Below, piece by piece: positions 1,947 through 44,783 of a stretch of DNA of 64,000 bases. Each line of letters begins with the position of its first letter. Positions within the stretch are counted from its first letter, which is position 1. This stretch comes from Kyrpidia tusciae DSM 2912 (lineage in GTDB: Bacteria > Bacillota > Bacilli > Kyrpidiales > Kyrpidiaceae), in assembly GCF_000092905.1 (NCBI RefSeq), contig NC_014098.1, forward strand, positions 2,976,001 to 3,040,000, given 5' to 3'. The notes below the pieces were generated by a model. The model ran no database searches. It saw only the letters and a list, made by a program, of their open reading frames with translations, and was not told where the DNA came from. The position numbers and the translations under genes were made by a program.

Positions 1947-2679
1947 CATCATGATCCAGGTTCGGGATCTGCACAAATCTTTCGGACAAACCCCCGTCCT
2001 TAACGGAGTCAGTTTCGACGTGCACCAACGCGAGAAAGTGGTCATCATCGGACCGTCCGGATCAGGCAAATCCACGTTGCTCCGTTGCATCAATTTTTTG
2101 GAAGTTCCTGATTCCGGAACGGTCACCATTGAAGGGACGACCTTGAGCCACCATTTCACCCAACGCCAAGTGGCCATCATTCGGGCTGAAGTCGGAATGG
2201 TTTTCCAGCGATTTCATCTTTTCCCCCACAAAACGGCGCTGCACAATGTGATGGCTCCGCTGATGACGGTGCAGAAAAAACCAAAAATAGAAGCCCAACA
2301 GATCGCCGAACATTATCTCGCGAAGGTCGGACTCGCAGACCGGCTTCATCATTATCCGAGTCAACTTTCGGGCGGGCAACAACAACGGGTCGCCATCGCC
2401 CTGGCGTTGGCCATACAGCCCAAGGCCATGCTGTTCGATGAGCCCACGTCGGCGCTCGACCCGGAACTGGTGGGAGAAGTCCTGAATGTGATCCGGGATC
2501 TCGCCGATGAAGGCATGACGATGATGATCGTGACCCACGAGATGAAATTCGCCCAGGAAGTGGCCGACCGGGTGATTTTTATGGACGGCGGAATGATCGT
2601 GGAAGAAGGGCCGCCAGAGCAGATTTTCTCGCGTCCTGCTCATCAACGGACAAAATCGTTTCTCTCCCGGGTGCACTGA
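1939..2679 (+). CDS. Amino-acid ABC transporter ATP-binding protein
   Basis: This 246-residue ATPase is of the GlnQ/HisP type. Walker A is GPSGSGKST, the Q-loop region is [12 protein letters not shown], the signature is LSGGQQQR, Walker B with D-loop is [12 protein letters not shown], and the switch histidine is in VTHEM. Length and order are normal. The start overlaps the permease 3' end, preceded by AAAGGAGGCTC. It completes a minimal importer with the two preceding genes. Transcription converges with the aromatic-pathway genes that follow. Confidence 0.95.
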
Positions 2680-2693
2680 CCCGTTGAAACGGT

Positions 2694-2741
2694 CCGGCGG
2701 GGACCAGCCCCGGCACACCCCGGTCCAGCCCCCTCCGCCGG
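2694..2741. terminator. Imperfect palindrome between convergent operons
   Basis: The 142-base gap between the convergent transporter and GntR genes contains CCGGCGG at 2694-2700 and CCGCCGG at 2735-2741, with an inner GGACC/GGTCC pair. It could fold into one long GC-rich hairpin. No clear T-run follows on either strand, so termination activity is only plausible. Confidence 0.35.
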
Positions 2742-2821
2742 CCTCGGAGGTACTTTTCGCGGACACGAAGCACCGCTAGGGCGATTTTGTCGACTTTTTT
2801 CTGTCGACTTCCAATTTCGGT

Positions 2822-3547
2822 TTATTCATCTATCTCACGAAACAAAGCTGCCACCCGAAATGCGTGAGCTTCTACTGCTTTTCTGACCGCATCCGCCCGT
2901 CTGTTTTGGAGATGATCGAATATTTCCTTGTGCTCCTCATAGGATTTCTTCATGTTTTCAGGGCTGAATAATATGTCTTGAGACATCGCATAATCCACTA
3001 AGTCCCAATGCAGGTCGACCAACGCCTGAATGTAACGGAGACCGGAAGCAAGGTAAATGATGTTATGAAACTCGCGATTCACAAAAGCATAATGTTGTGC
3101 AGAAACGCGATTCGGCTCCATCGTTGTTAAAAGATCACCAAGAAGAGCAACGTCCTCATCGCTTATTCTCCTTGCAGCCCACGCCGCCAAAAGGCCTTCT
3201 AAAACTGCACGACTAAGTAGTTTTTCAAAAAGCTCCTGCGAAGTCGGAGTGTGAACATACACCCCGACTTGAGGGACAACTTGAATGAAGCCTTCTTGTT
3301 CTAAACGTGAGAGCGCTTCTTGAATCGGTGTGCGACTGACATCGAGTTCCCGCGACAAGTGTTGAATGTCAATCGGCTGTCCGGGCTTTAAATGACGTGA
3401 CAAGATCAGTTTTTTGAGATGAACATAAACTTGATCTCGTTTCCGACCATAATAATTTTGGGGCCCGTTGTTTTTAAACGTTTTCTTTTCGAAGATCAAT
3501 AACTGTGAGTCAGGGGTGTCACCAGAAACATCTTTCGGTTCATTCAC
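2822..3547 (-). CDS. GntR-family transcriptional regulator, FCD subfamily
   Basis: This is probably a 241-residue regulator. The N-terminal winged helix (residues about 40-95) contains LSRELDVSRTPIQEALSRLEQEGF, written here as LSRELDVSRTPIQEAL then SRLEQEG. It is followed by an all-helical FCD ligand-binding domain with the typical FHNIIYLASG segment. A longer frame reaches 3661, but the GTG at 3547 overlaps the stop of the dehydrogenase gene in a GTGA arrangement and has a GGAAAGG site, so I prefer it. It is last in the aromatic operon and is the obvious candidate to control it. Related FCD regulators bind short palindromes and respond to carboxylic-acid effectors. Here the candidate operators are at 8773-8782 and 7590-7599. 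Confidence 0.85.
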   Translation of the reverse strand: MNEPKDVSGDTPDSQLLIFEKKTFKNNGPQNYYGRKRDQVYVHLKKLILSRHLKPGQPIDIQHLSRELDVSRTPIQEALSRLEQEGFIQVVPQVGVYVHTPTSQELFEKLLSRAVLEGLLAAWAARRISDEDVALLGDLLTTMEPNRVSAQHYAFVNREFHNIIYLASGLRYIQALVDLHWDLVDYAMSQDILFSPENMKKSYEEHKEIFDHLQNRRADAVRKAVEAHAFRVAALFREIDE

Positions 3548-4347
3548 AGCAAACCAGCTACCTTTCCAATTCCACGCGTCCCAAGCCCGCCATCGGAATT
3601 GATGACAACGCCAGTTACACCAGGAGACAATTCTTTCGCTGACAAATATACGTAAGTCCAAGCATGATCCTCTGGAATAAACACTTTTTGTAGCGGGTTC
3701 CCTCCTTGCATAAGTTCCTTTATGCCTGGTATGTTGCTCAGATTCATGTCTTGGTTCAAGGAACGTAATCCTCCTAAATTTGTGAGTGTACCACCGGGGG
3801 CGACACCGTTCACACGCACCTTCGGTGCCAATTCATATGCCATCTCGGCAACCAAACCACGCACCGCGAATTTCGAAGAAACATAGAGCGGTCCCCCGCC
3901 AGCTGGATAAAAGGCGGAGTTCGACAACGTATAAACAATGCTCCCCTCGTTTTTGATAAGCTCGTTTAACGCCGCTTTGGTGCTGTGAATAAAAGATTTC
4001 ACATTAACGTTAAATATTTCGTTAAAAGCATCGTCAATCTTCTCTTCTGGAAAATCCTGTAATGCTACATTGAAATCCCAAACGCCAACACACGTAACTA
4101 GCACATCCAAACGCCTAAAGCGCGCGACGGTCTGTTCCACTGCACGTTTGTTGTCCAGGCAGGTGGTCGCGTCTCCCTGAACGGCAACAATGTCACCGGC
4201 CAGTTGATTCAAGGCCTCAAGTTTTTTCTCATCTCGTTCGAGAACCCCAACTTTCGCGCCTTCCTTTACAAAAGTCTCAACGACAGCGCGGCCAATACCC
4301 GATCCACCACCCGTGACCAGAGCAACCTTGCCTTCAAATATCTTCAC
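3544..4347 (-). CDS. SDR dehydrogenase, cis-dihydrodiol dehydrogenase-like (BphB type)
   Basis: This 267-residue short-chain dehydrogenase/reductase has the cofactor motif TGGGSGIG near residue 12, an acidic residue after beta-2 (LERD) suggesting NAD, and the active site LSNSAFYPAGGGPLYVSSK with Ser, Tyr and Lys. RVNGVAPGG and the insert GVWDFNVALQDFPEEKID are typical of the biphenyl/phenylpropionate cis-dihydrodiol dehydrogenase branch. It should rearomatise the cis-dihydrodiol made by the ring-hydroxylating dioxygenase to a catechol. The start appears to be GTG behind GGAAGGGG. The 3' end overlaps the regulator start by 4 bases. Confidence 0.85.
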   Translation of the reverse strand: MKIFEGKVALVTGGGSGIGRAVVETFVKEGAKVGVLERDEKKLEALNQLAGDIVAVQGDATTCLDNKRAVEQTVARFRRLDVLVTCVGVWDFNVALQDFPEEKIDDAFNEIFNVNVKSFIHSTKAALNELIKNEGSIVYTLSNSAFYPAGGGPLYVSSKFAVRGLVAEMAYELAPKVRVNGVAPGGTLTNLGGLRSLNQDMNLSNIPGIKELMQGGNPLQKVFIPEDHAWTYVYLSAKELSPGVTGVVINSDGGLGTRGIGKVAGLL

Positions 4348-4398
4348 GAAAAGTCTACCCCTTCCACGCTTTTTCGGTCGAGTTTTTTCCCGTTCTGA

Positions 4399-5229
4399 TC
4401 ACGAAAGCAAGAATCTGCTAATCTCAGCCCGCATGGCATCCCATCGTTCAATTTGTGCCCAGTGGCCACAACGGTCATAGATCACTAACTCTGCCTTGCA
4501 CAAATTCTTTAGTAGGTAAAGGCTTCCTTCCAGCGGAACAACCCTGTCCTGCCTGCCATGAACAAGCAGCACCTCATGTGGAATAGAAGCTAATGCTGAT
4601 GGTGAGAGAGGCGGCAAAGGAGGATTAAACATCGTTTCATAGCTGCGTTTGAGATCCTCCCTGATCGCCTCACGGTAGCGTTGCTCAACCATTCCTTCAA
4701 AATTGGGGAACAACGATGTATCGGTTGGATCGTAAACAAAACTCCTGATGATCTCCCGGTACCTCGGATGTCTTGGGTCTTGATAAAAGCTGAGCATTCT
4801 CATCAATTCGGGAGTCACGCCAAATTGTCCACCGGCCGATCCCATTAATACGGCCTTGCGAAAACGCCCTGGAGCATCGAGGAGCAGGTGGAGAGCCAGA
4901 GCCCCTCCCATGGAATTCCCGACCAGATTTGCATCTTTTATGTCCAGCGCCTCCATCAATGCCAACGTTTGTTCCACCCGGAGACCAATCCACGCCAGTC
5001 CACCCGCCGGCAAAGGCTCAGGAAGCGAAGTCTCTCCAAAACCCAAGAGATCGGGGGCGATCACATAAAAATGTTCACTTAGATCTTTCATGGTATTGCT
5101 CCAGTTTGCTTCTGCGTTGGCGCCCGGCCCCCCGCCATGAAGAAGGATCACGGCAGGAGATTTACGATCGCCAGCTACAAGTACTTTCGTCGTCCACTTT
5201 AAAGTCGAAATCCGTTTGATCTCGTACAT
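4399..5229 (-). CDS. Alpha/beta hydrolase, meta-cleavage product hydrolase (BphD/MhpC-like)
   Basis: This 276-residue alpha/beta hydrolase carries the oxyanion-loop motif LLHGGGPGANAEANW, the nucleophile elbow VGNSMGG, the acid in LVHGRQDRVVP and the histidine in CGHWAQIE. HGGGPGA and the context match the carbon-carbon bond hydrolases that split the ring-opened product of extradiol cleavage into an acid and a 2-hydroxydienoate. A GGAGGACT site stands before the ATG. It lies between the dioxygenase genes and the dihydrodiol dehydrogenase, and the extradiol enzyme that makes its substrate is encoded at 7625-8539. Confidence 0.88.
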   Translation of the reverse strand: MYEIKRISTLKWTTKVLVAGDRKSPAVILLHGGGPGANAEANWSNTMKDLSEHFYVIAPDLLGFGETSLPEPLPAGGLAWIGLRVEQTLALMEALDIKDANLVGNSMGGALALHLLLDAPGRFRKAVLMGSAGGQFGVTPELMRMLSFYQDPRHPRYREIIRSFVYDPTDTSLFPNFEGMVEQRYREAIREDLKRSYETMFNPPLPPLSPSALASIPHEVLLVHGRQDRVVPLEGSLYLLKNLCKAELVIYDRCGHWAQIERWDAMRAEISRFLLS

Positions 5230-5385
5230 TTGTTTAGTCCTCCGTCGTTTCGTTTATTGGGTGATCTTCCAACATCGGGTCAAACTGATCGCCCTATCCA
5301 ATCGCTCCATCGACCAGATCATGATCAAACCCTTCGATCGGCTCCCAAAGACAGTCAAAGATGAAAGGAGGGTCTTTTTATCTCG

Positions 5386-5658
5386 TTAAAACGGACGTTT
5401 TCCCGGACCGTAAGGATGTTGAAGAAGTTTGGCAAATGTGTCGTGTGTTTGCCACGTCAAGCATTCCAGTTCCAATGGATCAAGGCGAATTTGGTAACCT
5501 AATTTCGGAGAGGTGATCTCCAACCGAAGACCATGTTTCGTATTAATCTTACGGATCCTCACCAACGCAAATTCATTGCCAATTTCGATGGGGTCTCCGG
5601 CTTCGTAGACCTCCTCCCTCCTCGACTCCACAGCGTCATTGACCGCGCGCATCTGCAC
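5386..5658 (-). CDS. Small conserved protein of aromatic dioxygenase operons
   Basis: The protein is about 90 residues, with a central segment EIGNEFALVRIRKINTKHG and a C-terminal segment RLDPLELECLTWQ. It sits 3' of the dioxygenase beta gene on the same strand. Similar small proteins are, from memory, found beside ring-hydroxylating dioxygenases and are sometimes labelled dihydrodiol dehydrogenase, although they lack any dehydrogenase fold; the function is unknown. A frame opening at 5691 has no usable ribosome site. The GTG at 5658 follows AAGGGGGGTG at good spacing, so I chose it; the ATG at 5652 is an alternative. Intergenic sequence to the hydrolase gene (about 155 bases) shows no recognisable feature. 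Confidence 0.65.
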   Translation of the reverse strand: MQMRAVNDAVESRREEVYEAGDPIEIGNEFALVRIRKINTKHGLRLEITSPKLGYQIRLDPLELECLTWQTHDTFAKLLQHPYGPGKRPF

Positions 5659-5694
5659 GAGCCCACCCCCCTTTTCTATGTTAAAATTCATCGC

Positions 5695-6207
5695 CTAGAA
5701 AAAGATAGCGAGGTTACGAGTCGTGACGACCGAATGATCCAAGTAGATGATCCGAGAGGCTAACCGCCACCTTTCACTCACTCTCCTTAGAACATCGTGT
5801 CGTTCTGCACTCAAAATGTCAAAAGTCGGATCATCCCCACGCGAGCGGTACACAAGGACGTTGGACCTGACACGAACTTCCCCGGGATGATCGCCTGGAG
5901 CCACCCGTATATTGGTGACAAAGTGCCGCGTTCGCGAAGGAGGATCTTCGGCCCAGGCATATTCAGTCTCTAATCGTTCAAGACGCTTCTCTAGCGTATA
6001 ACGGTCCTCAATAAAGTGGGACATCGCCGTCACCACACCCGGTCCATGTGCTCGTTCTCGGGTCACCCGCAACGGCATCGTGTAAGTGACGTCCTCTGTC
6101 GTCAAATCGAGCCATTCCCGAAGCCGGCCGTCATCCAACAATTCAGCTTCTTGAAAGAGAAACTCCTCGACCTCTCGCTGGATGCTTTCTTTTTCCAAAG
6201 CGTTCAT
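5695..6207 (-). CDS. Aromatic ring-hydroxylating dioxygenase, beta subunit
   Basis: This is a 170-residue protein of the NTF2-like fold typical of dioxygenase small subunits. It has EVEEFLFQEAELLDDGRLREW near the N-terminus (cited in part), then YTMPLRVTRER, and a tail with RIIYLDHSV. The beta subunit carries no metal and supports the alpha3-beta3 hexamer. A frame opens at 6216 with GTG, but that codon coincides with its own GAGGTG site. The ATG at 6207 has that site six bases upstream, so it is preferred. It lies 19 bases behind the alpha gene. Confidence 0.9.
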   Translation of the reverse strand: MNALEKESIQREVEEFLFQEAELLDDGRLREWLDLTTEDVTYTMPLRVTRERAHGPGVVTAMSHFIEDRYTLEKRLERLETEYAWAEDPPSRTRHFVTNIRVAPGDHPGEVRVRSNVLVYRSRGDDPTFDILSAERHDVLRRVSERWRLASRIIYLDHSVVTTRNLAIFF

Positions 6208-6226
6208 ATCGGTCACCTCGCTCTTT

Positions 6227-7543
6227 TTACTCTTTAATCATTTTCTCAAAATAAAGCTTCCACCAGTGACGCTGAGCATACTCCGTGTAGTCGATGGGAT
6301 AGGCTGTACCAGGTCCTGGCCAGTCCGAAAGGGGTTGGAATTTCTTTAACCCCATCGAATAGTTCAGCGGTGTGCGTTTGGCCAACATGCCTTTGGACAC
6401 TTTGGTGATGCTCGACCAGTTTTCAGCATCGTCTTGCTCCAGCGTTCCAGACGTTCCAAATGTCAAAACATAGCTTTTATAGCTGTCTTTTTTGAATTCT
6501 TCGGGGGCATCTTTTTCGACAAATAACCACGACCATATTTCCATGCGGTCAGGACCCAAAGGCCGCCAAACACGTACTGTCAAATAAGGAACCACACGTC
6601 CTTCGCGAGGAACACCGGGAGCATTTAGAAAGCTCAAATTGGGAAACAGCGTGCTATGGCTTTGCCATAACGCTCGATCCATGATCGCATGGTGGGATGC
6701 CGTAAGGTTTTGCCGCATCGACTGATAAAGAGATTCCGGATACATCGCTTGGTAAGGCAGGTTGGGTACATACCCCCCTCCCCATGGGCCGGCGATCACT
6801 TGTGGAGCGTCCTTGTGAAAGTTTGCGTCTGGCACGCCAAGGATCCCAACCTCTACTGTGCTTCGATGGGTAAAGGCGGTATGATAAGCATCCCCAACGA
6901 AATTGTCGGCTCCAAGTTTCCAGTTGGAAGGAAAAATCCACCGCTGAGGCCCGCCAACAACCTCCATACCTACCAAGGACTTTTTGAAATAGAAATCCAA
7001 GTAGAACTTCGCATCGCCTAACCATTGGTCAAGAGGAGGAGCTTCGGGATCAAGATTCGCAAAGATAAGGCCGTAAATGCTTGCAACACGGGGAGCCGGC
7101 ACCAATGGCCATTCGTTCTTGTTCAACCCCTCTTCTCCATAGACTTCTCTTTGAAATGGAACACCGATCAATTCACCCGTATTTTTGTAGGTCCACCCGT
7201 GGTAGGGGCAACGAAAAAAGGTGGCATTGCCACACTCGGAGCGGCATAACTCCATGCCTCGGTGCCGACACATATTGTACAGGACATGGACCTCTCCGTT
7301 TTCGGCGCGACCAACAATGAAAGAGTCATCGGCAATGTAGCGGACCACATAATCCCCGGCATGAGGAATCTCAGAATCGTGTGCCAGGAAAACCCAAGAA
7401 CGCCCGAAAATCTTTTCTTTTTCGAGCTCATAAACCATATGATCGCTAAAGAGGGCAGGCAAGAGCTGCGCATACGCAGTAAAACGCTCGTTAGCTTGAA
7501 GAAGAAAAGACTTTGCCTCCGTCAAAGCTTCTTCTTTAATCAC
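6227..7543 (-). CDS. Aromatic ring-hydroxylating dioxygenase, alpha subunit (Rieske)
   Basis: This 438-residue catalytic subunit has a Rieske [2Fe-2S] centre, CRHRG and CPYHGW, at about residues 83-106. The mononuclear iron site is seen in DNFVGDAYHTAFTH, with the bridging Asp and two His; the third ligand (Asp) is not assigned with certainty. It should add both atoms of O2 to an aromatic ring to give a cis-dihydrodiol. The reading frame opens with TTG at 7552 directly touching AAGGAGG. The GTG at 7543, nine bases from that site, is the more likely start. No ferredoxin or ferredoxin reductase gene is in the operon, so electrons must come from proteins encoded elsewhere. Confidence 0.93.
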   Translation of the reverse strand: MIKEEALTEAKSFLLQANERFTAYAQLLPALFSDHMVYELEKEKIFGRSWVFLAHDSEIPHAGDYVVRYIADDSFIVGRAENGEVHVLYNMCRHRGMELCRSECGNATFFRCPYHGWTYKNTGELIGVPFQREVYGEEGLNKNEWPLVPAPRVASIYGLIFANLDPEAPPLDQWLGDAKFYLDFYFKKSLVGMEVVGGPQRWIFPSNWKLGADNFVGDAYHTAFTHRSTVEVGILGVPDANFHKDAPQVIAGPWGGGYVPNLPYQAMYPESLYQSMRQNLTASHHAIMDRALWQSHSTLFPNLSFLNAPGVPREGRVVPYLTVRVWRPLGPDRMEIWSWLFVEKDAPEEFKKDSYKSYVLTFGTSGTLEQDDAENWSSITKVSKGMLAKRTPLNYSMGLKKFQPLSDWPGPGTAYPIDYTEYAQRHWWKLYFEKMIKE

Positions 7544-7589
7544 TCGATCCAACCTCCTTACATCACATTCATTTTTATTTTCGTGTTAA

Positions 7590-7599
7590 ATTCTAGAAT
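7590..7599. promoter_or_regulatory. Palindrome ATTCTAGAAT ahead of dioxygenase alpha gene
   Basis: This perfect 10-bp palindrome lies 47 bases upstream of the alpha-subunit start. It includes a TAGAAT that could act as a -10 box on the minus strand, but no -35-like hexamer sits 17 bases before it. An identical palindrome is in the promoter at 8773-8801. Two copies in one operon make it a candidate operator for the GntR regulator encoded at 2822-3547. Confidence 0.5.
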
Positions 7600-7624
7600 A
7601 AACGAAGAAAGGATGTAGAAGCAG

Positions 7625-8539
7625 TCATTCGCTGGTCACAATAGACGTTCCAGCGACGGGTTTGTGTCCCCAACTACTCAACTGTGAATAACTTTTGACC
7701 TCCCAGTTCGCGTCGTCGATGACGATTCCGCCCCACCCGTACTCGATCTCGAATCCTGACGGCGTCTGGACATAGAACGAGAACATCCGATCGTTGGGGT
7801 GATGCCCGAGCCCCATGGTGATGCGATAACCGGATTTCAAACAACGTTCGTAGGCCAAACCCACGTCGTTCATGTCCTGAACCTGCAGCATAAAGTGATG
7901 GATACGCTTAGGAATCGGCATCTGCGCCGTGGCGAGAGAGTGGTGACGTCCAGTAACCGTGTGGAAAAAGGTGGCGTCTACGATGACCCCGGGCTGAACT
8001 TCTTCTCGAATATAGTCGGAGAAGCGTAAACGTAGCATACGATGATAGAAGTCGACACTCTGCTCGTAATCCCGTGCTATGACAAGAATATGCCCTGCCC
8101 CGAGGCGCCCAGTAACAAAGCCAGGTCCAATCAGTTTCTTCGATCGGAAGGGGTTCCTGGTCGGGGCAATCGCGGGGCCGTAAACAAATTCATGCTTGAA
8201 TCCGTTCGGGTCGTCACAGGTATAGATTTTCTCCACTCTGCGGCGCTGAGCAAGTTCCTTACCCCCCTCTACGACCTGAATACCAAGAGCGGTCGTCTCT
8301 CGAACGAACTCCTCTAATTCTGCGTCACCATTGAACTCCCACCCGGCCGCAATAAGGTCATCTTCGGAGTTTTTCTCCAGGATGATGCGCTGTTCATATT
8401 CATCCATTCGAAAGGCCAGAGTTTGATCTTCTTCGCGCCGACCCACCTGCAAGCCCAAAATTTCGACACCAAAGTCCTCCCACTTAGGTAGGTCGCTCAC
8501 ACCAAAAACCACATAACTTAGGCACGTGATGTTTGCCAT
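7625..8539 (-). CDS. Extradiol ring-cleavage dioxygenase (BphC-like, VOC fold)
   Basis: This 304-residue, two-domain vicinal oxygen chelate protein carries the metal ligands in the C-terminal domain: His in GAGHILVIARD, His in RIHHFMLQVQD, Glu in GFEIEYGWGG. It should open a catechol such as 2,3-dihydroxybiphenyl next to the hydroxyls, giving the substrate of the hydrolase at 4399-5229. The frame runs back to 8614, but the ATG at 8539 has AAGGAGG seven bases upstream and starts the domain exactly (MANITCLSYVVFGV). It is first in the operon. It lies between two copies of the alpha-gene leader, as if inserted there. Confidence 0.92.
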   Translation of the reverse strand: MANITCLSYVVFGVSDLPKWEDFGVEILGLQVGRREEDQTLAFRMDEYEQRIILEKNSEDDLIAAGWEFNGDAELEEFVRETTALGIQVVEGGKELAQRRRVEKIYTCDDPNGFKHEFVYGPAIAPTRNPFRSKKLIGPGFVTGRLGAGHILVIARDYEQSVDFYHRMLRLRFSDYIREEVQPGVIVDATFFHTVTGRHHSLATAQMPIPKRIHHFMLQVQDMNDVGLAYERCLKSGYRITMGLGHHPNDRMFSFYVQTPSGFEIEYGWGGIVIDDANWEVKSYSQLSSWGHKPVAGTSIVTSE

Positions 8540-8639
8540 TGACAAAACCTCCTTGTCCAGTGGCAGTAAAAGGTTTCTTTCGTTGGATTCCGGCAGGCTT
8601 GGATTCGACTTCATAAACGAAGAGAGTGCTTGATCGGGA

Positions 8640-8785
8640 ACACAATACTACACCATGGCATTAAGACGATCGTCAGCTTGAATTAAGAAAAGATTTTGCG
8701 GACGCCAGAGCTTCTTCTCTTAATGATCCCTGCCACCTCCTTGCTTCGGTATTGTTGGTATTTTCGTGTTTAATTCTAGAATGAT
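8640..8785 (-). pseudogene. Duplicated leader and first codons of the dioxygenase alpha gene
   Basis: Read on the minus strand, this segment repeats the promoter-proximal palindrome, the AAGGAGG site and about 16 codons of the alpha-subunit gene (EEALTEAKSFLL in the gene, EEALASAKSFLN here) with scattered differences. The start codon is lost and the frame soon stops. It is a vestige, and its transcript leads directly into the extradiol dioxygenase gene. Confidence 0.75.
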
Positions 8786-8801
8786 CTTTTATAACTGTCA
8801 A
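8773..8801 (-). promoter_or_regulatory. Sigma-A promoter of the aromatic operon with overlapping operator
   Basis: On the minus strand TTGACA (8801-8796) is followed after exactly 17 bases by TAGAAT (8778-8773). The -10 box lies inside the palindrome ATTCTAGAAT (8773-8782), so a repressor bound there would block RNA polymerase. This is the best promoter in front of the aromatic genes. Confidence 0.75.
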
Positions 8802-9084
8802 GATGAAAATTTCAGTGTGCACAGCATCTGGTTTGTTCTCAATGAATAATGATGAAGATAACCTTGTTCGTCTGAAATCAAGGACCACTGACACTGGGCT
8901 TCAGCCCACTGTATCCCCGTCCCGTCCTCCGGCAAGTCAATGAATGGATTGTTGCAGAAAAAGACAAAACAGATAACTCGAAAGATTCAGACTTGTACAA
9001 TCACGGTGGAGCCGGATCGGCTCAGCCGGATGACCATGCGAAGGTCCAGACAAATCCAGAGACACCCTCGAACCATGGCAAACT

Positions 9085-9165
9085 GTTGCTCGATGTCGGA
9101 TGGCTTTTCCGGCCAGGCCCCCTTGCCGTATTCGCCGATCTGTGCTTCGTTCAGCAGACCCTACG
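9085..9165 (-). repeat. Remnant shared with the debris at 29.8 kb and 46.8 kb
   Basis: About 70 bases here, read on the minus strand, match 29819-29890 and its copy near 46864-46935 on the plus strand (shared core GATCGGCGAATACGGCAAGG). This copy translates as GEYGKGAWPEKPSDIEQQF, a plausible piece of a transposase-like or other lost protein, but I do not recognise the family. The rest of 8.8-9.4 kb shows nothing recognisable. Confidence 0.5.
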
Positions 9166-9397
9166 TAAATAGTTGCTCAGGACTTTCACGATCGCAACTT
9201 TTAATGGATGAGATAGATAGCTGCAATAAGGACCTGGAGAACAGCTATGATAGTCATAGTGATGGCCGCTAATGTACTTGAATTAATCAGCAAAACCTCC
9301 TATCTACAAAGCCAACAAGCTGTTCCGTGCCATTTGGTCTTTATCAAAATTGCACGCACGTAAAGACGCACGAAGGTCGCAGGAGCCATTTCACGCC

Positions 9398-10312
9398 TCA
9401 GCGGTGCAGGGTGTATACATTGGCCTTTGAGATGGACCGGATCAGCTCGACTTCGTCTCGAGTTAAATCCGGTACTCGCCCGGCTCCGGTGTTGGTCAGA
9501 AGCTGTTCCGTGCTGCTTGCTCCCGGGATGACTGCTGCGACGGCCGGGTAAGCCAACGGGTAGCGCAACGCGATTTGTGAGAGGCTCCGGTCCTCGCCGG
9601 CCAGCGCAGCCAGGCGCCTGACCAGTTCGACGATTTCCACCGGTGAATAGTCGAGGTAGCCGTCGGCCGGCTCAGGGGCGGTCAAGGTGCGCTCGGACAA
9701 AAGCCCCTGGGCGAGAGGACCACGAGCGATCATGGAAATGCCGTGTTCCTGAAGGAGGGACAAGACCGTCTCCTCCGGCCGCCGGTCCAGCACGCTGTAC
9801 TGCATCATCACGCTCACGATGTTCGACCGCTTGACGTATTCGCGGATGACGTTCGGGCGGATGGAAGAGAGGCCGTAGTAGCGGATGACGCCTTCCTGTT
9901 TGAGTTCTTCGAAAGCCTCAATGGTCTCGTCGATCGGATCGTCGATGGTCCCGCCGTGGAGTTGGTACAAATCGATATAGTCTGTCCGCAGCCGCCGCAG
10001 GCTGCCCTTCACCGCCTCCTTGATATAGGCTTTCGAAGGATCCCAGGACCAGCCGTCCTTGCCGGGCTCCCAGCGGTTGCCGACTTTGGTGGCGAGGATG
10101 ACGTCATGGCGTTTGCCTGTCAACGCCTTGCAGACCCACTCTTCGTTTCTCCCCTGTTGGTACAGGTCCGCCGTATCTAAGAAGTTGACGCCGCGGTCAA
10201 GGGCGGCGTGAATCATGCGAATGCTCTCCTGCTCGTCGCGGCTCAACGACATACAACCCAGTCCAATCTCGCTGACGTAGAGATCGCTGCGACCCAACCG
10301 GTTCTTCTTCAC
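9398..10312 (-). CDS. Aldo/keto reductase, copy 1
   Basis: This 304-residue AKR barrel is of the YdhF/IolS-like class. It has LGRSDLYVSEIGLGCM at the start, the catalytic Asp/Tyr in NFLDTADLYQQGRNEEW, Lys in VILATKVGNRW, His in LYQLHGG, and the cofactor-binding tail VIPGASSTEQL. It reduces carbonyls with NADPH; the substrate is unknown. The frame extends to 10417, but GTG at 10312 behind AAGGAGGT is the clear start. A second copy, differing at only scattered residues, is at 31131-32045. The two copies share boundaries from about 20 bases upstream of the start to the stop codon. Confidence 0.9.
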   Translation of the reverse strand: MKKNRLGRSDLYVSEIGLGCMSLSRDEQESIRMIHAALDRGVNFLDTADLYQQGRNEEWVCKALTGKRHDVILATKVGNRWEPGKDGWSWDPSKAYIKEAVKGSLRRLRTDYIDLYQLHGGTIDDPIDETIEAFEELKQEGVIRYYGLSSIRPNVIREYVKRSNIVSVMMQYSVLDRRPEETVLSLLQEHGISMIARGPLAQGLLSERTLTAPEPADGYLDYSPVEIVELVRRLAALAGEDRSLSQIALRYPLAYPAVAAVIPGASSTEQLLTNTGAGRVPDLTRDEVELIRSISKANVYTLHR

Positions 10313-10483
10313 CCGCGAATACCTCCTTGTAAAACGCTTCACAGATATTGTAGCAGAGCAGAGGATGCGTGCGCCCTTGTAGAAAAACCGCGGGTTGCCC
10401 CCACCGATGCGAAGCACTGTGAATGATCTTTCCTCTGTTTACACGACTCACCGCCCAGCGATTCACTGGTCATTGGATATCCA

Positions 10484-13041: not shown

Positions 13042-13182
13042 TTCTTTCCGATATATTTTGTCAAGGGGGTTGCCGATCGGGCCCGGCTCTACCGACACCG
13101 CCCGATCCGCAGCCGAACTCTGGTTCCTTTTTTCCGGAGAAGCTTTCCCATTCCACCAGACAGGCGGGCGGGTCGTCACTGT

Positions 13183-13995
13183 TCACCCGCCGTCCCTGGG
13201 ACGAACCGGCTTGACGCCGCCCTTGCGTCCCAAGCCGTAGCCGATACGGTACACATCCGGGATATTGACCCGCCCGTCGCTCATCCGGAAAAAGATGCCC
13301 AATTGCTCCAGATCCTCCCGAACTCCACGTGCCCCTTCGTCAAGGTGTGGCGGTGAAAGCTCTTCCCCATTAGCGCCGAAGCGTCGGCGGAGTTCGTCGA
13401 GCGAGTCTGCCTTCTCCCAGCGCTGAATCACTTCGTGAAAATCACACGGCACCACAAGACCCCGGAGCGGCCCCATGAGGACATCCACCCAGGGGTAATC
13501 TTCTTTCAACTCCCTCACGCGAATCTGTGAAGCTTTGCGGACACCGCGCTTGATGCTTTCATAATATAAAGCGGTTTCATGTTTCGAGGGCTGGTTTTGG
13601 CTATGCTTCACCGCCTCACGAAGGGCCGCCAGAAACGATCGCGGACTGACGCGCTGGTTGGCATCCGAAAGGTGGTTGGGAATCCAGGTGTACGGGTAAC
13701 CGCGCCGGTGATCTCGTCCCATCCAGGGACCTGTAATAGCATGGAAGACCTCCCGCTGCAGGGTCTCCTCGTGGATCACCTCGGGAACCACCCGCCAGAT
13801 CGTTCGATCTCCCAGGACAACGCGCTGCCACCTAAGCCCCAATGCGACAGACGCTTTCCGAAACTGTCCCGCCTCATCCACCGCGGCATTACCGAGATAT
13901 TGCCAGAACAGCCCATAGAGATCGTACGGGGGCCAGGAAAACTAGATTTTTGAAGCCAGCACTTTTGATCCGTCCGCAAAATTCGCCACTCGACT
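13183..13995 (-). pseudogene. C-terminal remnant of the P-loop ATPase (intact copy at 37256-38758)
   Basis: The frame at 13183-13881 encodes 232 residues nearly identical to the C-terminal half of the P-loop ATPase at 37256-38758 (MGRDHRRGYPYTWIPNHLSD in both). Further upstream the match continues to about 13995 but contains an in-frame TAG near 13945, where the intact copy reads KIGLSWPSYD. The N-terminal half with the Walker A motif is missing. The 5' flank changes abruptly at about 13995. It is a truncated duplicate and not expected to bind ATP. Confidence 0.85.
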
Positions 13996-22073: not shown

Positions 22074-22102
22074 GGAAAAAGAGGGAGGGCCGCTGCCCTC
22101 CC
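22074..22102 (-). terminator. Rho-independent terminator of toxin module copy 2
   Basis: The stem GGGAGGGC/GCCCTCCC with a CGCT loop is followed by a T-run on the minus strand, directly after the toxin stop at 22114. Copy 3 of the module (44.5 kb) keeps the stem but has lost the T-run. Confidence 0.82.
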
Positions 22103-22113
22103 CAAAGAACCGC

Positions 22114-22329
22114 TCAGATTTTGCTATTGAAGTATTCCTGGGTGACCTGCAACTGCTTCTTCAGGATGGTCTGCCACAAATGGCCCTTGATCTCCCCTGT
22201 TCCCTTTGACACCTTCGTCCGCTTGATTGTCCCGTCGGGCATAAATTTTCGGTAGTAGTGGTCCGTGTCCTTGTACAGCTCCCATCCGTCGTTTTCGCAG
22301 AACCGCTTGAGGTCCTTCCAGCTAGGCAT
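22114..22329 (-). CDS. HicA-like toxin, copy 2
   Basis: The 71-residue protein MPSWKDLKRFCENDGWELY... with HYYRKFMPDGTIKRTKVSKG is a small dsRBD-fold toxin related to HicA; His in DHYYRK is the likely functional residue. It overlaps the antitoxin gene by 8 bases and ends just before a terminator. The near-identical copy 3 (44565-44783) has an extra Tyr in the HYYYxK run. Confidence 0.8.
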   Translation of the reverse strand: MPSWKDLKRFCENDGWELYKDTDHYYRKFMPDGTIKRTKVSKGTGEIKGHLWQTILKKQLQVTQEYFNSKI

Positions 22330-22741
22330 CCAGCAGACCCACCACGCCCTCCAGGTCGTCCTGGATAAGGACGTTCAGGACATAGGGTGCATGGTGCTTC
22401 CGGTTCGGGGCGTTGAAATACAACTGGAACTCCTCCATGTACTCGTTCGCGTACTCGACGGCTTCCTTCGCCAGTTCCCGTTTCAGTTCCTCCACCGTCG
22501 GCGCGTTGGCCGCGATGTCAAACACGTCAAGGGTTCCCGTAAACGTGCCGTCGTCCTCCTGCTGATACTCCATCTTGAAACAGTACCCGGACAATAAAAA
22601 CCGCAAATGCTCGATGGAAACGGCCGCGAACCTGTCGCGATTCCGCTTTACGAATTGCGGCCGGACGCGGACCACGGTGTCGATGAAATGCCCCCAGTCC
22701 TTCCGGACTTCCGTTGCGTTCAGGACAGCGCTCATCATCAT
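22322..22741 (-). CDS. Antitoxin of the HicA-like toxin, copy 2
   Basis: The 139-residue protein has two parts. A Phd-like N-terminus (VLNATEVRKDWGHFIDTVVR, RDRFAAVSIEHL) probably binds DNA. A HicB-like C-terminus (YQQEDDGTFTGTLDVFDIAA, ELKRELAKEAVEYANEYMEE) probably binds the toxin. The start has three consecutive ATG codons behind GGAGGGG; the second or third (22738, 22735) has the better spacing. Copy 3 at 44776-45195 is almost identical. Confidence 0.8.
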   Translation of the reverse strand: MMMSAVLNATEVRKDWGHFIDTVVRVRPQFVKRNRDRFAAVSIEHLRFLLSGYCFKMEYQQEDDGTFTGTLDVFDIAANAPTVEELKRELAKEAVEYANEYMEEFQLYFNAPNRKHHAPYVLNVLIQDDLEGVVGLLDA

Positions 22742-22781
22742 TCCCCTCCAGTCCCCATTCTACCATGTTTGTGTGCATTCT

Positions 22782-22794
22782 GTACATAGTGTAC
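22782..22794. promoter_or_regulatory. Candidate operator of the toxin module
   Basis: The inverted repeat GTACA-TAG-TGTAC lies about 45 bases upstream of the antitoxin start, where an autoregulatory site is expected. In the copy at 45.24 kb one arm is changed by a single base, so the evidence is modest. Confidence 0.35.
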
Positions 22795-22945
22795 GCATGG
22801 CAATGGGGAAACATACGGAGTGGGTTGTATCCCATTTTTCGCATATCGAAGAATGTCGAAACATGGAATCGGTCGTCTACCTGTTTTGACAAAGTTCGAC
22901 GTCATATCCACAAACGGGAACCCCTCGGAGGAATCAGTTGCCGCA

Positions 22946-23214
22946 TCATGTCGAAGGCCGCTTCGCTATGATGTCGATGACAATTTCAGCGTTTCGCCGG
23001 ATCAGTTTGAGCAAATCGTCCCCATCGTCCTCGGTAATCCCGTATTTCCCGGCAATCCTCGGGCGAGCAAGACCGTCGCCAACTCATCCAGCAAGGGATC
23101 GCTGGTGACCCACATAAAGCGGCGAAACCGGTAGGCATCGATCACCCGAGGTGGAACACCGGAGGCACTGATGAGTCCGGACACCCAACTGTTCGTGTCA
23201 ATGACGGCCTTCAT
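22946..23214 (-). pseudogene. PIN-domain toxin, frameshifted, copy A
   Basis: The frame starts MKAVIDTNSWVSGLISASG and continues to ELATVLLA with PIN features (DTN, EL), then loses phase. The continuing sense, RIAGKYGITEDDVDDLLKL, is found in another frame down to a stop at 22946. The second catalytic part of the PIN fold is therefore not translated in phase. The gene overlaps the ribbon-helix-helix antitoxin gene upstream. Confidence 0.75.
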
Positions 23215-23440
23215 TCCGCGCCTCCCGGGCCTCTTTCTTTGCCGCCCGGACGTCCGCCTCAATCTCTTCCTCCGAAATGGCCTACCCCACCCTGCTCCTG
23301 ACGCCCTTGACCAGCGCATCCATCTCCGCCTGCCAGTTCGAGGATTCTTTCAGGCGTTCCCTCAAAAATTGGTCCACGGCTTGGCGAACCGAATCGAACA
23401 CGCTCTTGTTCTCGGCCGCCGACAAAAATCGCGCCTGCAT
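23198..23440 (-). pseudogene. Ribbon-helix-helix antitoxin, broken copy A
   Basis: The segment AAENKSVFDSVRQAVDQFLR then ERLKESSNWQAEMDALVKG matches the intact antitoxins at 28513-28794 and 45652-45933. The first ribbon (NIYLSQDQLRLLKHL in the intact genes) is replaced, and an in-frame TAG appears at about 23282 where the others read CAG. Confidence 0.78.
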
Positions 23441-28794: not shown

Positions 28795-29116
28795 CACGAC
28801 CCGCCTCCGGAAGTGGTTTCCCTCATTATACATCATGGTGTATACGTACGCCTCTCTCCGTTGGCGTGTCTGAGCCTCTCCTCCTCAAAAACATCTCGGG
28901 ACCGGAAGAAATCCCGCCCCTACCGGTTCAGAAGCACGAGAGAAAAATTCCCTCCGCCACCCCCGTATGATTGGAGGACCGAGAGAAATTTTTTGCCCGC
29001 CACCCCCCCTCACACTTTGGCAAGGGCGGTAGAACGGTTGGCCTCACATTCGACGGCACGCTAAAATAACGTTACAGCATCCCGACCTCCCCAGAGGTCC
29101 AAAAGGAGGAACCCGT

Positions 29117-29335
29117 ATGCCCCGCCGACGCCTCACTGCCGCCGTCACCAAAGAGGGCAAATGGTACGTGGCCCGTTGCCTCGAAGTGGAAGTGACCAGC
29201 CAGGGCGAGACCCTCGAAGAAGCTCTTGCCAACCTGCGCGAGGCCCTGGAGTTGTACTTCGAGGACGCGTCGGCCGACCTGCCGGACACCGGCCCGATCA
29301 TCGCACCCGTGGACATCGAAGTGAAGCAGGCTTGA
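29117..29335 (+). CDS. hicB: HicB-family antitoxin (short form), copy 1
   Basis: The 72-residue HicB has only the toxin-binding fold: TAAVTKEGKWYVARCLEVEV then TSQGETLEEALANLREALEL. There is no separate DNA-binding domain. AAGGAGGAACCC precedes the ATG. The following hicA overlaps its stop by four bases (antitoxin-first order). An identical pair is at 46160-46602. Confidence 0.85.
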   Translation: MPRRRLTAAVTKEGKWYVARCLEVEVTSQGETLEEALANLREALELYFEDASADLPDTGPIIAPVDIEVKQA

Positions 29336-29559
29336 GCCCTCGCGTGCCGGTCGTGTCCGGAACGGAAACCATCATGGCGCTGGGCCGCGCGGGATTCGTG
29401 AAAGTGAGCCAAAAGGGAAGCCACGTGAAGGTCCGGCGCAAGGACGGCAGGCAGGCCATCGTACCCCTGCACGATGAGCTGGCTCCGGGCACTCTCCGGT
29501 CGATCCTCAGGCAGGCCGGGATCTCTGTGGACGAGTTCCTGAGACTGCTGAAGGGATGA
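29332..29559 (+). CDS. hicA: HicA-family toxin, copy 1
   Basis: The protein has about 75 residues: PVVSGTETIMALGRAGFVKV, SQKGSHVKVRRKDGRQAIVP and LRSILRQAGISVDEFLRLL. GSH carries the catalytic His of HicA mRNA interferases. The start is probably TTG at 29332 in a TTGA overlap with the hicB stop; GTG at 29344 is the alternative. Confidence 0.85.
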   Translation: MSPRVPVVSGTETIMALGRAGFVKVSQKGSHVKVRRKDGRQAIVPLHDELAPGTLRSILRQAGISVDEFLRLLKG

Positions 29560-30054
29560 CCCGCCGTCGCGAAAAACCCGCCTGAGCCTCAGAATGTTGA
29601 TATACACTGAAAATGGACCCCAGATCGTCAGAGAAAATTGACCCCCACCAGATAGACTGGTACGCTCCTACTAATCTGAGTGGGAACGGAGGAGAAAGGA
29701 TCAAACGCTGGAGACGGTCCTGGAAGCTCTGGAGTGCGGGATTCGCCACTTTGGCGGTGTGCCTGAGAGGGTGGGTGAACTTGAGAGCAATAAATGAGCC
29801 GACCCGATTCTGTAATGAGGTTCTGCTGAACGATCACCGATCGGCGAATACGGCAAGGGGGACTGACCCGAAGAGCCATCCGTATGATGGCCTGCACCAA
29901 GTATGCATTTTCGTACTTCATCCGGCTGGGACATACGCTGTACCTTTCCGTCTAACGTTACCGGATCGCCGATACATGCCTGCCTGGCTTCACCTCCCAA
30001 ACAATCTTTGGTGCACGATGTAGTCTACTGGTCTTTGTGGTTCTATCAATGCCG
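29560..30054 (+). other. Non-coding debris shared with 46603-47094
   Basis: No intact gene is present. The segment contains a coding-looking scrap, TLETVLEALECGIRHFGGVP, reminiscent of the HFGGVP stretch of IS21-type transposases. It also holds the 70-base stretch that recurs near 9.1 kb (GATCGGCGAATACGGCAAGG). Several frameshifts and stops interrupt it. It is an old insertion-element remnant at best. Confidence 0.4.
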
Positions 30055-31047
30055 TCACGGCGTCTCCGGCTGTCCCGCATAAATCTCCTTTATAAATGTC
30101 TCGACCTCATTCCATGCTTTGTTGGCATCCGGCAATTTCGGGAACAGCAACTGAAAATCATGGAACATGCCGGGGTACGTTGTCTGCTGAACCGAGACTC
30201 CGGCTGCTTCGGCTTTTTGCGCGACCTTAACGGTATCGTTTAGCAGCATTTCATCCCCGCCGACCTGCATGAGCATGGGAGGAAAGCCGGCATACTCGCC
30301 ATAAATAGGTGAAATGTAAGGATTGTCGGCGCGGTTCTCGCCCACATATTCGGGAATCACGCGTTTGTAGTTCAGATTCGTCCATGCGGACATGGTGATC
30401 AGGGCCGCGGGCATCGGCATGTCATGATCCCTGAGATAGAGCGCAGTGGCCAGCGCAAGTCCGCCGCCCGCCGAATCGCCCGCTAGAATGATTCGCTCCG
30501 GCCTGTATCCTTGCTCCAAAAGCCAGTTGTAAGCCAAAACCGCGTCCTCCAGAGCCGCAGGATAAGGGTGTTCCGGAGCGACCCGGTAATCCACCGTCAA
30601 AACTCCGGCTCCGCTTATCTTGGCATATTGTATCGCCGTGCGCCGGTATGTCATGCCGCTTTTCTCCAGCGAGCGAATATAGGCTCCGCCGTGAAGCTGT
30701 AAAATAACCTTATCCGGCTTTGTATCCTTTGCTTGCACCCAATTCATGGTTATGCCGTCGACTTCTTTGACTTCTAAAGTGTAATCCTCCGGCAACACCC
30801 ATTCCTCATTCAGCTCATTCAGCTGTTTTAGTGTTTTAACGTTGTCATTTCCGCCGATATCCAATCTATTCCGCAGGAAATTTCCTTCCCCGAGGTTCGG
30901 ACTCTGCGTTGGCTTCGAACTCTGCGTCGGTGATGGCTCCTGCCTCGGCGTTTGAAACAAATACCGAATACCTCCGACGACGGTAACACCGATGATTACG
31001 ATTAAGACGATCCAAGGAACGGACTTACGTTTCCTGTTTTTATTCGT
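30055..31047 (-). CDS. Membrane-anchored alpha/beta hydrolase (HSL-type esterase)
   Basis: The hydrolase part has the hormone-sensitive-lipase motifs LQLHGGAYIRS, AGDSAGGGLA (nucleophile), Asp in GGDEMLL and His in GMFHDFQLL. Up to an ATG at 30960 it would be 301 residues without a membrane anchor. The frame stays open upstream and encodes NKNRKRKSVPWIVLIVIIGV, a typical N-terminal anchor. Exactly where a start is expected, eight bases after AAAGGAGG, the codon at 31047-31045 is ACG. Either ACG is used, or a start mutation has occurred; full length would be 330 residues. A second, 5'-truncated copy is at 47095-47788. Confidence 0.78.
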   Translation of the reverse strand, partial: TNKNRKRKSVPWIVLIVIIGVTVVGGIRYLFQTPRQEPSPTQSSKPTQSPNLGEGNFLRNRLDIGGNDNVKTLKQLNELNEEWVLPEDYTLEVKEVDGITMNWVQAKDTKPDKVILQLHGGAYIRSLEKSGMTYRRTAIQYAKISGAGVLTVDYRVAPEHPYPAALEDAVLAYNWLLEQGYRPERIILAGDSAGGGLALATALYLRDHDMPMPAALITMSAWTNLNYKRVIPEYVGENRADNPYISPIYGEYAGFPPMLMQVGGDEMLLNDTVKVAQKAEAAGVSVQQTTYPGMFHDFQLLFPKLPDANKAWNEVETFIKEIYAGQPETP

Positions 31048-31130
31048 CGCTTCCGCCTCCTTTCTCCTCTTTTATAAATTTCTGCAAATAGCCGTAAAGC
31101 TCGGTTTGGGAATATAGGCTATTCCACGCC

Positions 31131-32045
31131 TCAGCGGTGCAGAGTGTATACATTGGCCCTTGAGAAGGACCGGATCAGTTTGACTTCGTCTTGGGTTAAG
31201 TCCGGTACACGCGCGGCTCCGGTGTTGGTCAGAAGCTGTTCCGTGCTGCTTGCTCCCGGGATGACCGCTGCGACGGCCGGGTGAGCCAGCGGGTAGCGCA
31301 ACGCGATTTGTGAGAGGCTCCGGTCCTCGCCGGCCAGCGCGGCAAGGCGCCTGACCAGTTCGACGATTTCCACCGGTGAATAGTCGAGGTACCCGGCGGC
31401 CGGCGCAGGGCCAGTCAAGGTGCGTTCGGACAAAAGCCCCTGGGCGAGAGGACCGCGAGCAATCATGGAAATGCCGTGTTCCTGAAGGAGGGACAAAACC
31501 GTCTCTTCGGGCCGCCGGTCCAGCACGCTGTACTGCATCATCACGCTCACGATGTTCGACCGCTTGACATATTCGCGGATGACGTTCGGGCGGATCGAAG
31601 AGATGCCGTAGCAGCGGATGACGCCTTCCTGCTTGAGTTCTTCGAAAGCATCAATGGTTTCGTCGATCGGATCATCGAGGGTCCCGCCGTGGAGTTGGTA
31701 CAAATCGATATAGTCCGTCTGCAGCCGCCGCAGGCTGCCCTTCACCGCCTCCTTGATATAGGCTTTCGAAGGATCCCAGGACCAGCCGTCCTTGCCGGGC
31801 TCCCAGCGGTTGCCGACTTTGGTGGCGAGGATGACGTCATGGCGTTTGCCTTTCAACGCCTTGCCGACCCACTCTTCGTTTCTGCCCTGTCGGTACAGGT
31901 CCGCCGTATCCAAGAAATTGACGCCGCGGTCAAGGGCGGCGTGAATCATGCGAATGCTCTCCTGCTCGTCGCGGCTCAACGACATACAACCCAGTCCAAT
32001 CTCGCTGACGTAGAGATCACTGCGACCCAACCGGTTCTTCTTCAC
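31131..32045 (-). CDS. Aldo/keto reductase, copy 2
   Basis: This 304-residue near-duplicate of the enzyme at 9398-10312 has all catalytic residues kept (LDTADLY, ATKVGNRW, LYQLHGG). GTG at 32045 stands behind AAGGAGGT. Upstream of that site the sequence is the end of a broken AAA ATPase gene (FWDEPEANLNPKLLGTVIEI), so this copy was inserted into or joined to that gene. The region between this gene and the esterase (31048-31130) is spacer. Confidence 0.88.
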   Translation of the reverse strand: MKKNRLGRSDLYVSEIGLGCMSLSRDEQESIRMIHAALDRGVNFLDTADLYRQGRNEEWVGKALKGKRHDVILATKVGNRWEPGKDGWSWDPSKAYIKEAVKGSLRRLQTDYIDLYQLHGGTLDDPIDETIDAFEELKQEGVIRCYGISSIRPNVIREYVKRSNIVSVMMQYSVLDRRPEETVLSLLQEHGISMIARGPLAQGLLSERTLTGPAPAAGYLDYSPVEIVELVRRLAALAGEDRSLSQIALRYPLAHPAVAAVIPGASSTEQLLTNTGAARVPDLTQDEVKLIRSFSRANVYTLHR

Positions 32046-32063
32046 CCGCGAACACCTCCTTGT

Positions 32064-32615
32064 AAAAAGAATTTCGATGACCGTCCCCAAGAGCTTCGGA
32101 TTCAGATTGGCTTCAGGTTCGTCCCAAAACAAGACGGATCCGTTCAGCAGGGTCCCGTTCTGGATTCCATTGGTCCGCGCAGCGCGGGGCGGTAGGCCCT
32201 GTCAAGAATGTCTGCGTAAATCTCTTAAATGGATTTCGCGCTGGGCATAGAGCGAGCGAAAGCCCAGGGAATTGGCAAGCATTTCCTTAACAGGGATATA
32301 TACACTTTCGATTGGTTCAGCCGTCCATTCCCTAGCCCCGTTGATGGTGGCAGAATCAGGACTTGTGGAATGGTTGGAAAATGAAATTCGCAACTTCTTT
32401 GATCCACGATATACTTCTACGACACAACCAGCGCTTCCTTTTTGGCGCTTGACCAAACGCCCAATTGTATGGCCGGACGGCATATACACTCGAATCAACT
32501 TCTCAGCAAAATTGGCCTTCGTTTTGCTAATGTCACAAGCAGCATCAGGCAAAGCCTGAAACATCAGGAAGCGCAACACATCCGGAGGCGAAAAAGAAAA
32601 CCCGTTCGCACTCAT
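32064..32615 (-). pseudogene. Chimeric ATPase remnant
   Basis: On the minus strand the first 23 codons are the start of the P-loop ATPase (SFSPPDVLRFLMFQALP; compare 38758). They are fused to the AAA ATPase from its ACDISKTK segment (compare 41854-40832). This part loses frame after LYAQREIH, near 32220. A deletion then joins it to QNGTLLNGSVLFWDEPEANL and VIEIL, where the aldo/keto reductase copy begins. Three separate breakpoints show it is rearrangement debris and not a gene. Confidence 0.85.
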
Positions 32616-37099: not shown

Positions 37100-37255
37100 G
37101 CGGATCGTCCCTCTCTCCCAAACAGTTCAATGCCGCCGACCAGCCCTCCCGAACGCCCGCAGGGGAGCCCACACTGGAGCCGCCTGACGGGATCCAACCG
37201 TCGCCTCTCCGTCACAAGTGGAGCGTTCTATCACTGAGGGGCGGGGCATCCCTGT

Positions 37256-44398: not shown

Positions 44399-44564
44399 AC
44401 AGAAATCAGTGTGGGTGACCTGTGCCGTCTGTCAAGGCGGGAAAACGGCCTTGACAGACTTATTCCAGCTGTTGTCACGGCGACCGAGTGTCCCCCGATC
44501 CGCTGAGAGCAGAGTAAGCCCGCCGCCATGCATAGAGAGGGCCGCTGCCCTCCCCAAGAACCGC

Positions 44565-44783
44565 TCAGATTTTGCTATTGAAGTATTCCTGGGTGACCTG
44601 CAACTGCTTCTTCAGGATGGTCTGCCACAAATGACCTTTAATCTCTCCCGTCCCCTTCGAGACCTTCGTCCGCTTGATTGTCCCATCGGGCATAAATTTT
44701 GGGTAGTAGTAGTGGTCCGTGTCCTTGTACAGCTCCCATCCGTCGTTTTCGCAGAACCGCTTGAGGTCCTTCCAGCTAGGCAT
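44565..44783 (-). CDS. HicA-like toxin, copy 3
   Basis: The 72-residue protein has the same layout as copy 2 (SWKDLKRFCENDGWELYKDT, KVSKGTGEIKGHLWQT). It reads HYYYPKFMPDG where copy 1 has HYYYRK. The change of Arg to Pro next to the conserved His/Tyr run may affect activity. It overlaps the antitoxin by 8 bases. Confidence 0.78.
   Translation of the reverse strand: MPSWKDLKRFCENDGWELYKDTDHYYYPKFMPDGTIKRTKVSKGTGEIKGHLWQTILKKQLQVTQEYFNSKI

Follow-up and report, generated by a model that had tools for sequence, protein, structure and literature searches.

Locus and Gene Content

The window, i.e., the whole stretch of 64,000 bases that was analysed, covers bases 2976001-3040000 of the 3,384,766-base single-contig genome of Kyrpidia tusciae DSM 2912. 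An operon on its minus strand, apparently for the degradation of aromatic compounds, begins with an extradiol dioxygenase gene, which is followed by genes for the alpha and beta subunits of a Rieske dioxygenase, a small protein, a hydrolase, a dehydrogenase and a GntR/FCD regulator, in the following order:

7625-8539, minus strand: extradiol dioxygenase gene of the BphC type, 304 amino acids, with the Shine-Dalgarno (SD) sequence AAGGAGG and the Pfam domains Glyoxalase and BphC_D1
6227-7552, minus strand: Rieske dioxygenase alpha subunit gene, likely start GTG at 7543
5695-6216, minus strand: dioxygenase beta subunit gene
5386-5691, minus strand: gene for a conserved small protein of 101 residues, which follows the beta gene in many related clusters
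4399-5229, minus strand: alpha/beta hydrolase gene, HsaD/BphD-like, scoring below the cut-offs of those models
3544-4347, minus strand: short-chain dehydrogenase gene of the dihydrodiol dehydrogenase type (NF004849, 362.5 bits, above the cut-off of 330)
2822-3661, minus strand: GntR/FCD regulator gene, presumed repressor, the true start of which is probably further in

The small protein encoded at 5386-5691 matched neither Pfam nor NCBIfam. The alpha gene has two candidate starts, of which GTG at 7543, placed 9 nt after AAGGAGG as read from the bases, is likelier than the alternative TTG at 7552. Terminator-like sites occur at chance level (10 versus a shuffle mean of 8.5), and two on the minus strand fall inside the extradiol and alpha genes; thus, a single long transcript of the operon is an assumption.

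Several other repeats were observed in the window. An aldo/keto reductase gene is present twice, at 9398-10417 and 31131-32132, with 950 bases at 95% identity (9385-10334 and 31118-32067). Long direct repeats link 28949-30739 with 45992-47788 (98%) and 22082-23424 with 44534-45878 (97%), and there are several shorter ones too, including an 830-base repeat at 93% (13166-13995 and 37239-38068). In this 830-base repeat, a short open reading frame (13183-13881) is similar to the C-terminal portion of a longer frame (37256-38758), with a P-loop-like motif recognised by eye. In addition, a 66-base element (88%) is found at 9097-9162, which is upstream of the operon, and at 29818-29882 and 46863-46927, the latter two being inverted relative to the first. 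Given the long direct repeats, the region looks reshuffled.

Duplicated Alpha Leader

The 5′ part of the alpha gene, together with its leader, is present twice, on either side of the extradiol gene:

7421-7599, minus strand: inner copy, leader and first alpha codons, with the −10 element kept, no TTGACA, and TCTACA at 18 bases
8604-8782, minus strand: outer copy, decayed, comprising the leader and the 41 initial codons of alpha
7598-7611, minus strand: 14-base repeat CTTTCTTCGTTTAT, downstream edge, directly adjoining the inner −10 element
8613-8626, minus strand: 14-base repeat CTCTCTTCGTTTAT at the upstream edge, inside the alpha remnant, 13/14 identical to 7598-7611

A preliminary description of this DNA had placed a leader repeat at 7505-7600 and 8690-8785. 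The repeat is real and above chance, and it is larger than first described. Without gaps, it appears as a direct repeat of 98 nt (7502-7599 and 8685-8782) at 72% identity; with gaps, the minus-strand alignment runs over 7599-7421 and 8782-8604, in which 128 of the 177 aligned bases are identical with 4 gap columns, and none of 1000 single-base shuffles scored as high. Instead of the approximately 16 alpha codons initially thought to be duplicated, the repeated part comprises 41 codons counted from GTG 7543 (44 from TTG 7552), with the portion past the stop codon of the outer copy being weaker (equalled or exceeded in 9 of 2000 shuffles). A genome-wide search with the inner leader returned the outer copy at E 5e-16 and the next match at E 0.43, i.e., no third copy. 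The extradiol gene (7625-8539) does lie between the two copies, as had been described.

The outer copy retains the SD sequence AAGGAGG but lacks a start codon where that of alpha would be. Read from the alignments, it differs from the inner copy by two extra and two missing bases, with shifted frames and one stop. Twelve of the 15 codons that specify the same residue in both copies are identical, compared with 110/300 between the window alpha gene and that of Thermogemmatispora (Fisher P 0.0016 versus 12/15) and 87/235 between the window alpha gene and that of Paenibacillus, and the differences between the copies fall on codon positions 1/2/3 as 9/4/6, the comparison of the leader copies being a small sample of only 26 codons. 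Because of these identical codons and this spread of differences, the outer copy looks like a sequence that decayed largely without protein-level selection. A neutral simulation of the protein similarity of the outer copy gave P 0.10, and there may have been some past selection on it.

The 14-base repeats mark the two edges of the inserted stretch. A match of 13/14 was reached in 1 of 3000 shuffles, in a test that was devised after the repeat had been noticed. The edge repeats could be the target duplication of an insertion, or the mark of a short-homology recombination.

Promoter and Operator Element

Two further features overlap at the upstream end of the outer copy:

8773-8801, minus strand: sigma-70-like promoter TTGACA-17-TAGAAT of the outer copy, 11/12 consensus bases
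8759-8782, minus strand: outer −10/operator element ATTCTAGAATTAAACACGAAAATA, 23/24 identical to the inner copy

The strong promoter attributed to the outer copy is indeed present as TTGACA-17-TAGAAT, promoter-like by its sequence, and it is the best of 9 promoter-like matches in 2500-9400 (shuffle mean 6.5). In the inner copy, the match of TCTACA at 18 bases is of a quality that is also seen in shuffles. The preliminary description held that the inner copy had lost its −35 box. However, the similarity between the copies begins at ATTCTAGAAT, which includes the −10 box and excludes the −35 box; because the repeat starts at the −10 box, with the −35 box outside the repeated unit, the inner copy probably never had one. 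The first 24 bases of the repeat are better preserved than the remainder (23/24 versus 105/153 identical, P 0.0014).

Within this well-preserved part, a ten-base palindrome overlaps the −10 box TAGAAT. The motif ATTCTARAATTNAACNNGAAAA, searched with two mismatches allowed, has 3 sites in the genome, with a backward-pattern control giving 0, where the pattern itself was derived from those same three sites. The third copy, in which the palindrome is imperfect and which is accompanied by TTGACA at 17 bases, lies upstream of the hydrolase gene of a second dioxygenase operon. This second operon (2336000-2354000 of the same genome) contains genes for a hydrolase, alpha and beta subunits, the small protein and a GntR regulator, and the promoter element is common to both operons; it also has a LigB-like gene. 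The leader of its alpha gene was considered as a source of the outer copy and rejected, as it aligns with neither copy above shuffles. Since the motif recurs before the second operon, and since the GntR regulator of that operon shares 56.5% identity over 253 residues with the GntR/FCD regulator of the window, the evidence points to a putative operator common to both dioxygenase operons. No site of the motif with five or fewer mismatches was found near the promoters of the Thermogemmatispora cluster (L029), L031 or the plasmid pBt40 (L104 and L105), and no known RNA leader was found in 7000-9400 at the gathering threshold.

The two copies of the putative operator in the window operon are 1183 bases apart and both conserved. 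A speculative and rather improbable extension is that the GntR repressor binds both, with the DNA looping across the extradiol gene, which would give linked but unequal control of the substitute and the older genes; in that case, the duplicated leader would have been retained for regulation and be more than a scar.

Lineage of the Extradiol Gene

The extradiol protein matches the PDB entry 23al over its full length (361.7 bits). Its homology to a solved BphC of the vicinal oxygen chelate type, 1han, is also full-length, with residues 4-296 aligned to 1han residues 2-288 (199.3 bits, E 7.5e-58). With the NCBIfam equivalog model for biphenyl-2,3-diol 1,2-dioxygenase (23dbph12diox, TIGR03213), it scores 279.1 bits, below the curated cut-off of 366.45. 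As candidates for a 2-His-1-Glu metal site, the His and Glu residues in the motifs GagH, riHHf and fEiEyg align with identical residues in 1han, whose metal ligands are H146, H210 and E260.

The best plasmid homologues of the gene are from Diaphorobacter (53% identity) and Rhodococcus (46% identity), and the extradiol gene of the Rhodococcus plasmid pDF01 presumably serves dibenzofuran breakdown. In a tree of 22 rows, 19 of them different, for which the program warned of long branches elsewhere in the tree, the window extradiol joins the Diaphorobacter plasmid gene with support of 98/98, far from the type native to the related operons. No match to this gene at E 1e-20 or better was found in 397 other genomes sampled from the class, including both congeners (one of them 86% complete). 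Among 298 genomes sampled from the Pseudonocardia order, one extradiol was found at E 1e-70 or better, with 47% identity. By base composition there is no clear foreign signal; the GC3 of the extradiol gene is 0.593 versus 0.436-0.552 in the other operon genes.

Probable Relic of the Native Extradiol Gene

A different extradiol gene is located 1.7-1.9 kb downstream of alpha in L029, in L031 and on pBt40 (L104). The pBt40 gene is annotated as a manganese-dependent BphC, to which those of L029 and L031 are 54% and 83% identical, respectively. An intact Mn-dependent-type BphC gene was not found downstream of alpha in the window. However, the gene-free gap of 156 bases between the small protein and hydrolase genes contains a further feature:

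5243-5365, minus strand: probable relic of the C-terminus of a native Mn-dependent-type BphC gene, interrupted by a stop, matching profile positions 276-312 of 314

In a six-frame search of the window, the relic was matched by the profile of the three nearest proteins at E 0.015, with the next match other than the extradiol gene itself at E 6, and by a wider four-protein profile, which included the more distant congener protein, at E 0.42-0.55. For each of two queries, none of 500 shuffles of the gap reached the score. The native BphC gene of L029 likewise lies directly before the hydrolase gene. Judged from this short, weak match and its position, 5243-5365 is probably the stump of the native BphC gene.

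The dehydrogenase gene stands after the hydrolase gene here (3544-5229) and before native BphC in L029, L031 and L104. This arrangement of the dehydrogenase, native BphC and hydrolase genes differs from that of the three relatives, suggesting at least one further re-ordering of the operon.

Survey of Related Clusters

The preliminary description had proposed a comparison with related operons lacking the insertion. A census of alpha subunits of at least 350 residues, the one in the window excluded, gave 49 rows, of which 4 were dropped for having less than 1 kb upstream; the remaining 45 represent 43 genes (the duplicates being L029/L102 and L023/L086, the latter the second operon of this genome), and five rows have less than 2 kb upstream. 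The census covered the two BphC extradiol types, with other families, e.g., LigB-like ones, outside its scope. In 43 of the 45 rows, no extradiol homologue of either type was found within 2.5 kb upstream of alpha, in agreement with an insertion in the window. Both exceptions, L032 and L033, belong to the same Pseudonocardia genome and have BphC genes of another branch before alpha. L030 has neither extradiol type nearby.

The leaders of L029-L033 were compared with both copies, and nine of the ten comparisons stayed within 200 shuffles; the tenth (L029 versus the inner copy) scored 29 versus at most 28 in shuffles, from a short match in the coding part. A direct empty-site comparison is out of reach, because these related leaders align within shuffles and the nearest alpha is 69% identical.

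Congener G002 (86% complete) was rejected as a relative for this comparison, as all it has of alpha is the start of the gene, cut off by the end of a contig (46% over 39 residues); before this alpha start is a distant native-type extradiol gene, 33% identical to that of L029. In congener G001, no alpha was found at E 0.001, and none was found at E 1e-90 in 46 other genomes of the class of L029. No stretch of the viral contigs matched a pattern.

Proposed Replacement of the Extradiol Gene and Alternative Explanations

The locus was initially described as a pathway gene captured under an existing promoter. The extradiol gene is indeed located behind a strong promoter-like sequence and between two alpha leader copies; however, replacement seems a better reading than plain capture, since a probable native-type relic lies downstream. 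We put the probability at roughly two in three that the native extradiol gene was lost and that a substitute of another lineage was placed first behind the operon promoter. The difference in lineage comes from the tree, and the loss of the native gene from the weak relic (E 0.015); if the substitute catalyses the same reaction as the native enzyme, the case would be a non-orthologous gene displacement within an operon.

The two leader copies, the promoter match, the gene order, the lineage of the extradiol gene and the third motif copy can be read directly in the DNA; the order of steps, the mechanism of insertion, transcription, repressor binding and substrate are inferred. The ancestor would have been a JF8-like operon of the biphenyl type (after Geobacillus sp. 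JF8), in which alpha was followed by a Mn-dependent-type BphC gene and preceded by no extradiol gene. The leader and 41 alpha codons would have been duplicated from the −10 box on, and a BphC-type extradiol gene of another lineage would have landed between the copies. It would thereby have come immediately under the original promoter, and the outer alpha fragment would have become a 5′ leader that is not translated and decays. Of the native extradiol gene, deletion would have spared only the C-terminal relic upstream of the hydrolase gene. At present, a single promoter (8773-8801) most likely drives the operon from the extradiol gene through the GntR regulator gene, and the GntR protein is predicted to act as a repressor on the −10/operator element as long as no aromatic inducer is available.

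The main rival to replacement is that the operon already had this extradiol gene in a downstream position and was re-ordered: a larger part of it was doubled in tandem and the first alpha, beta and further genes were deleted, moving the extradiol gene to the front. This would account in one scheme for the alpha 5′ fragment before the extradiol gene and the intact alpha gene after it, and L029, L031 and L104 also have their dehydrogenase, native BphC and hydrolase genes in a different order. However, the downstream extradiol of the relatives belongs to another branch, so the foreign gene would have to have been acquired beforehand, and the 14-base edge repeats are not predicted. We regard this course of events as unlikely, though as the strongest of the alternatives.

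Less probable still is that the outer copy is what remains of a separate, already diverged alpha operon joined by recombination in the leader, e.g., by integration of a replicon that carried the extradiol gene. The 49 differences among the 177 aligned bases are many for a recent duplicate, and a crossover in homologous leaders would give the layout in one step; however, the 12 of 15 same-residue codons that are identical argue against a long life as a working gene, and neither the adjacent open reading frames listed nor the ten proteins scanned include a replication or integration gene. A shared operator with chance similarity in the remainder, named in the preliminary description as the finding that would overturn the repeat, is refuted, for although the −10/operator element is the most conserved part and recurs before another operon, the match continues over 105 of 153 bases beyond it, through the alpha codons, and the alpha leader of the second operon gives no such alignment with either copy.

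Replacement of the extradiol gene is thus the reading that we retain. It is a readable case of operon remodelling and not a new kind of system, and the type of event is familiar. To our knowledge, based on a limited literature search, it is less familiar for the scars of both insertion and loss to be found at one locus; among the titles retrieved on operon remodelling, none mentions such scars, and the one paper listed for the species and its dioxygenase concerns a ciliate genome. Comparisons of operons usually deal with completed gene orders only. In this locus, both halves of a replacement have probably left their scars, namely the leader copies around the newcomer and the stump of the outgoing gene. 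It offers testable predictions on the order of events, promoter use and regulation in a catabolic operon that exchanged an enzyme and kept its promoter and regulator.

Comparison with Known Systems

The bph operon of Geobacillus sp. JF8 (plasmid pBt40, bphDA1A2BC), the alpha subunit of which is 54% identical to that of the window, shares with the window the set of GntR regulator, hydrolase, alpha, beta, small protein and dehydrogenase genes, i.e., the JF8-type gene set. It differs in having the GntR and hydrolase genes before alpha and an intact Mn-dependent BphC gene after the dehydrogenase gene; unlike in the window, its alpha gene is not preceded by an extradiol gene within the 1.6 kb of upstream sequence examined.

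The cluster of Thermogemmatispora tikiterensis (L029) has the nearest alpha (69%) and shares the alpha, beta, small protein, dehydrogenase, hydrolase and GntR genes. In contrast to the window, no extradiol gene precedes alpha in this cluster, and a native-type BphC gene lies between the dehydrogenase and hydrolase genes.

As for regulation, BphS, the regulator of the KKS102 bph operon, is a member of the GntR family. According to a passage in PMC10282184, BphS represses the KKS102 bph operon, in which the operator overlaps the promoter. The regulator gene of the window is the last in its operon, unlike the arrangement of bphS in KKS102, but the overlap of operator and promoter, predicted here from sequence alone, is a likeness between the two systems.
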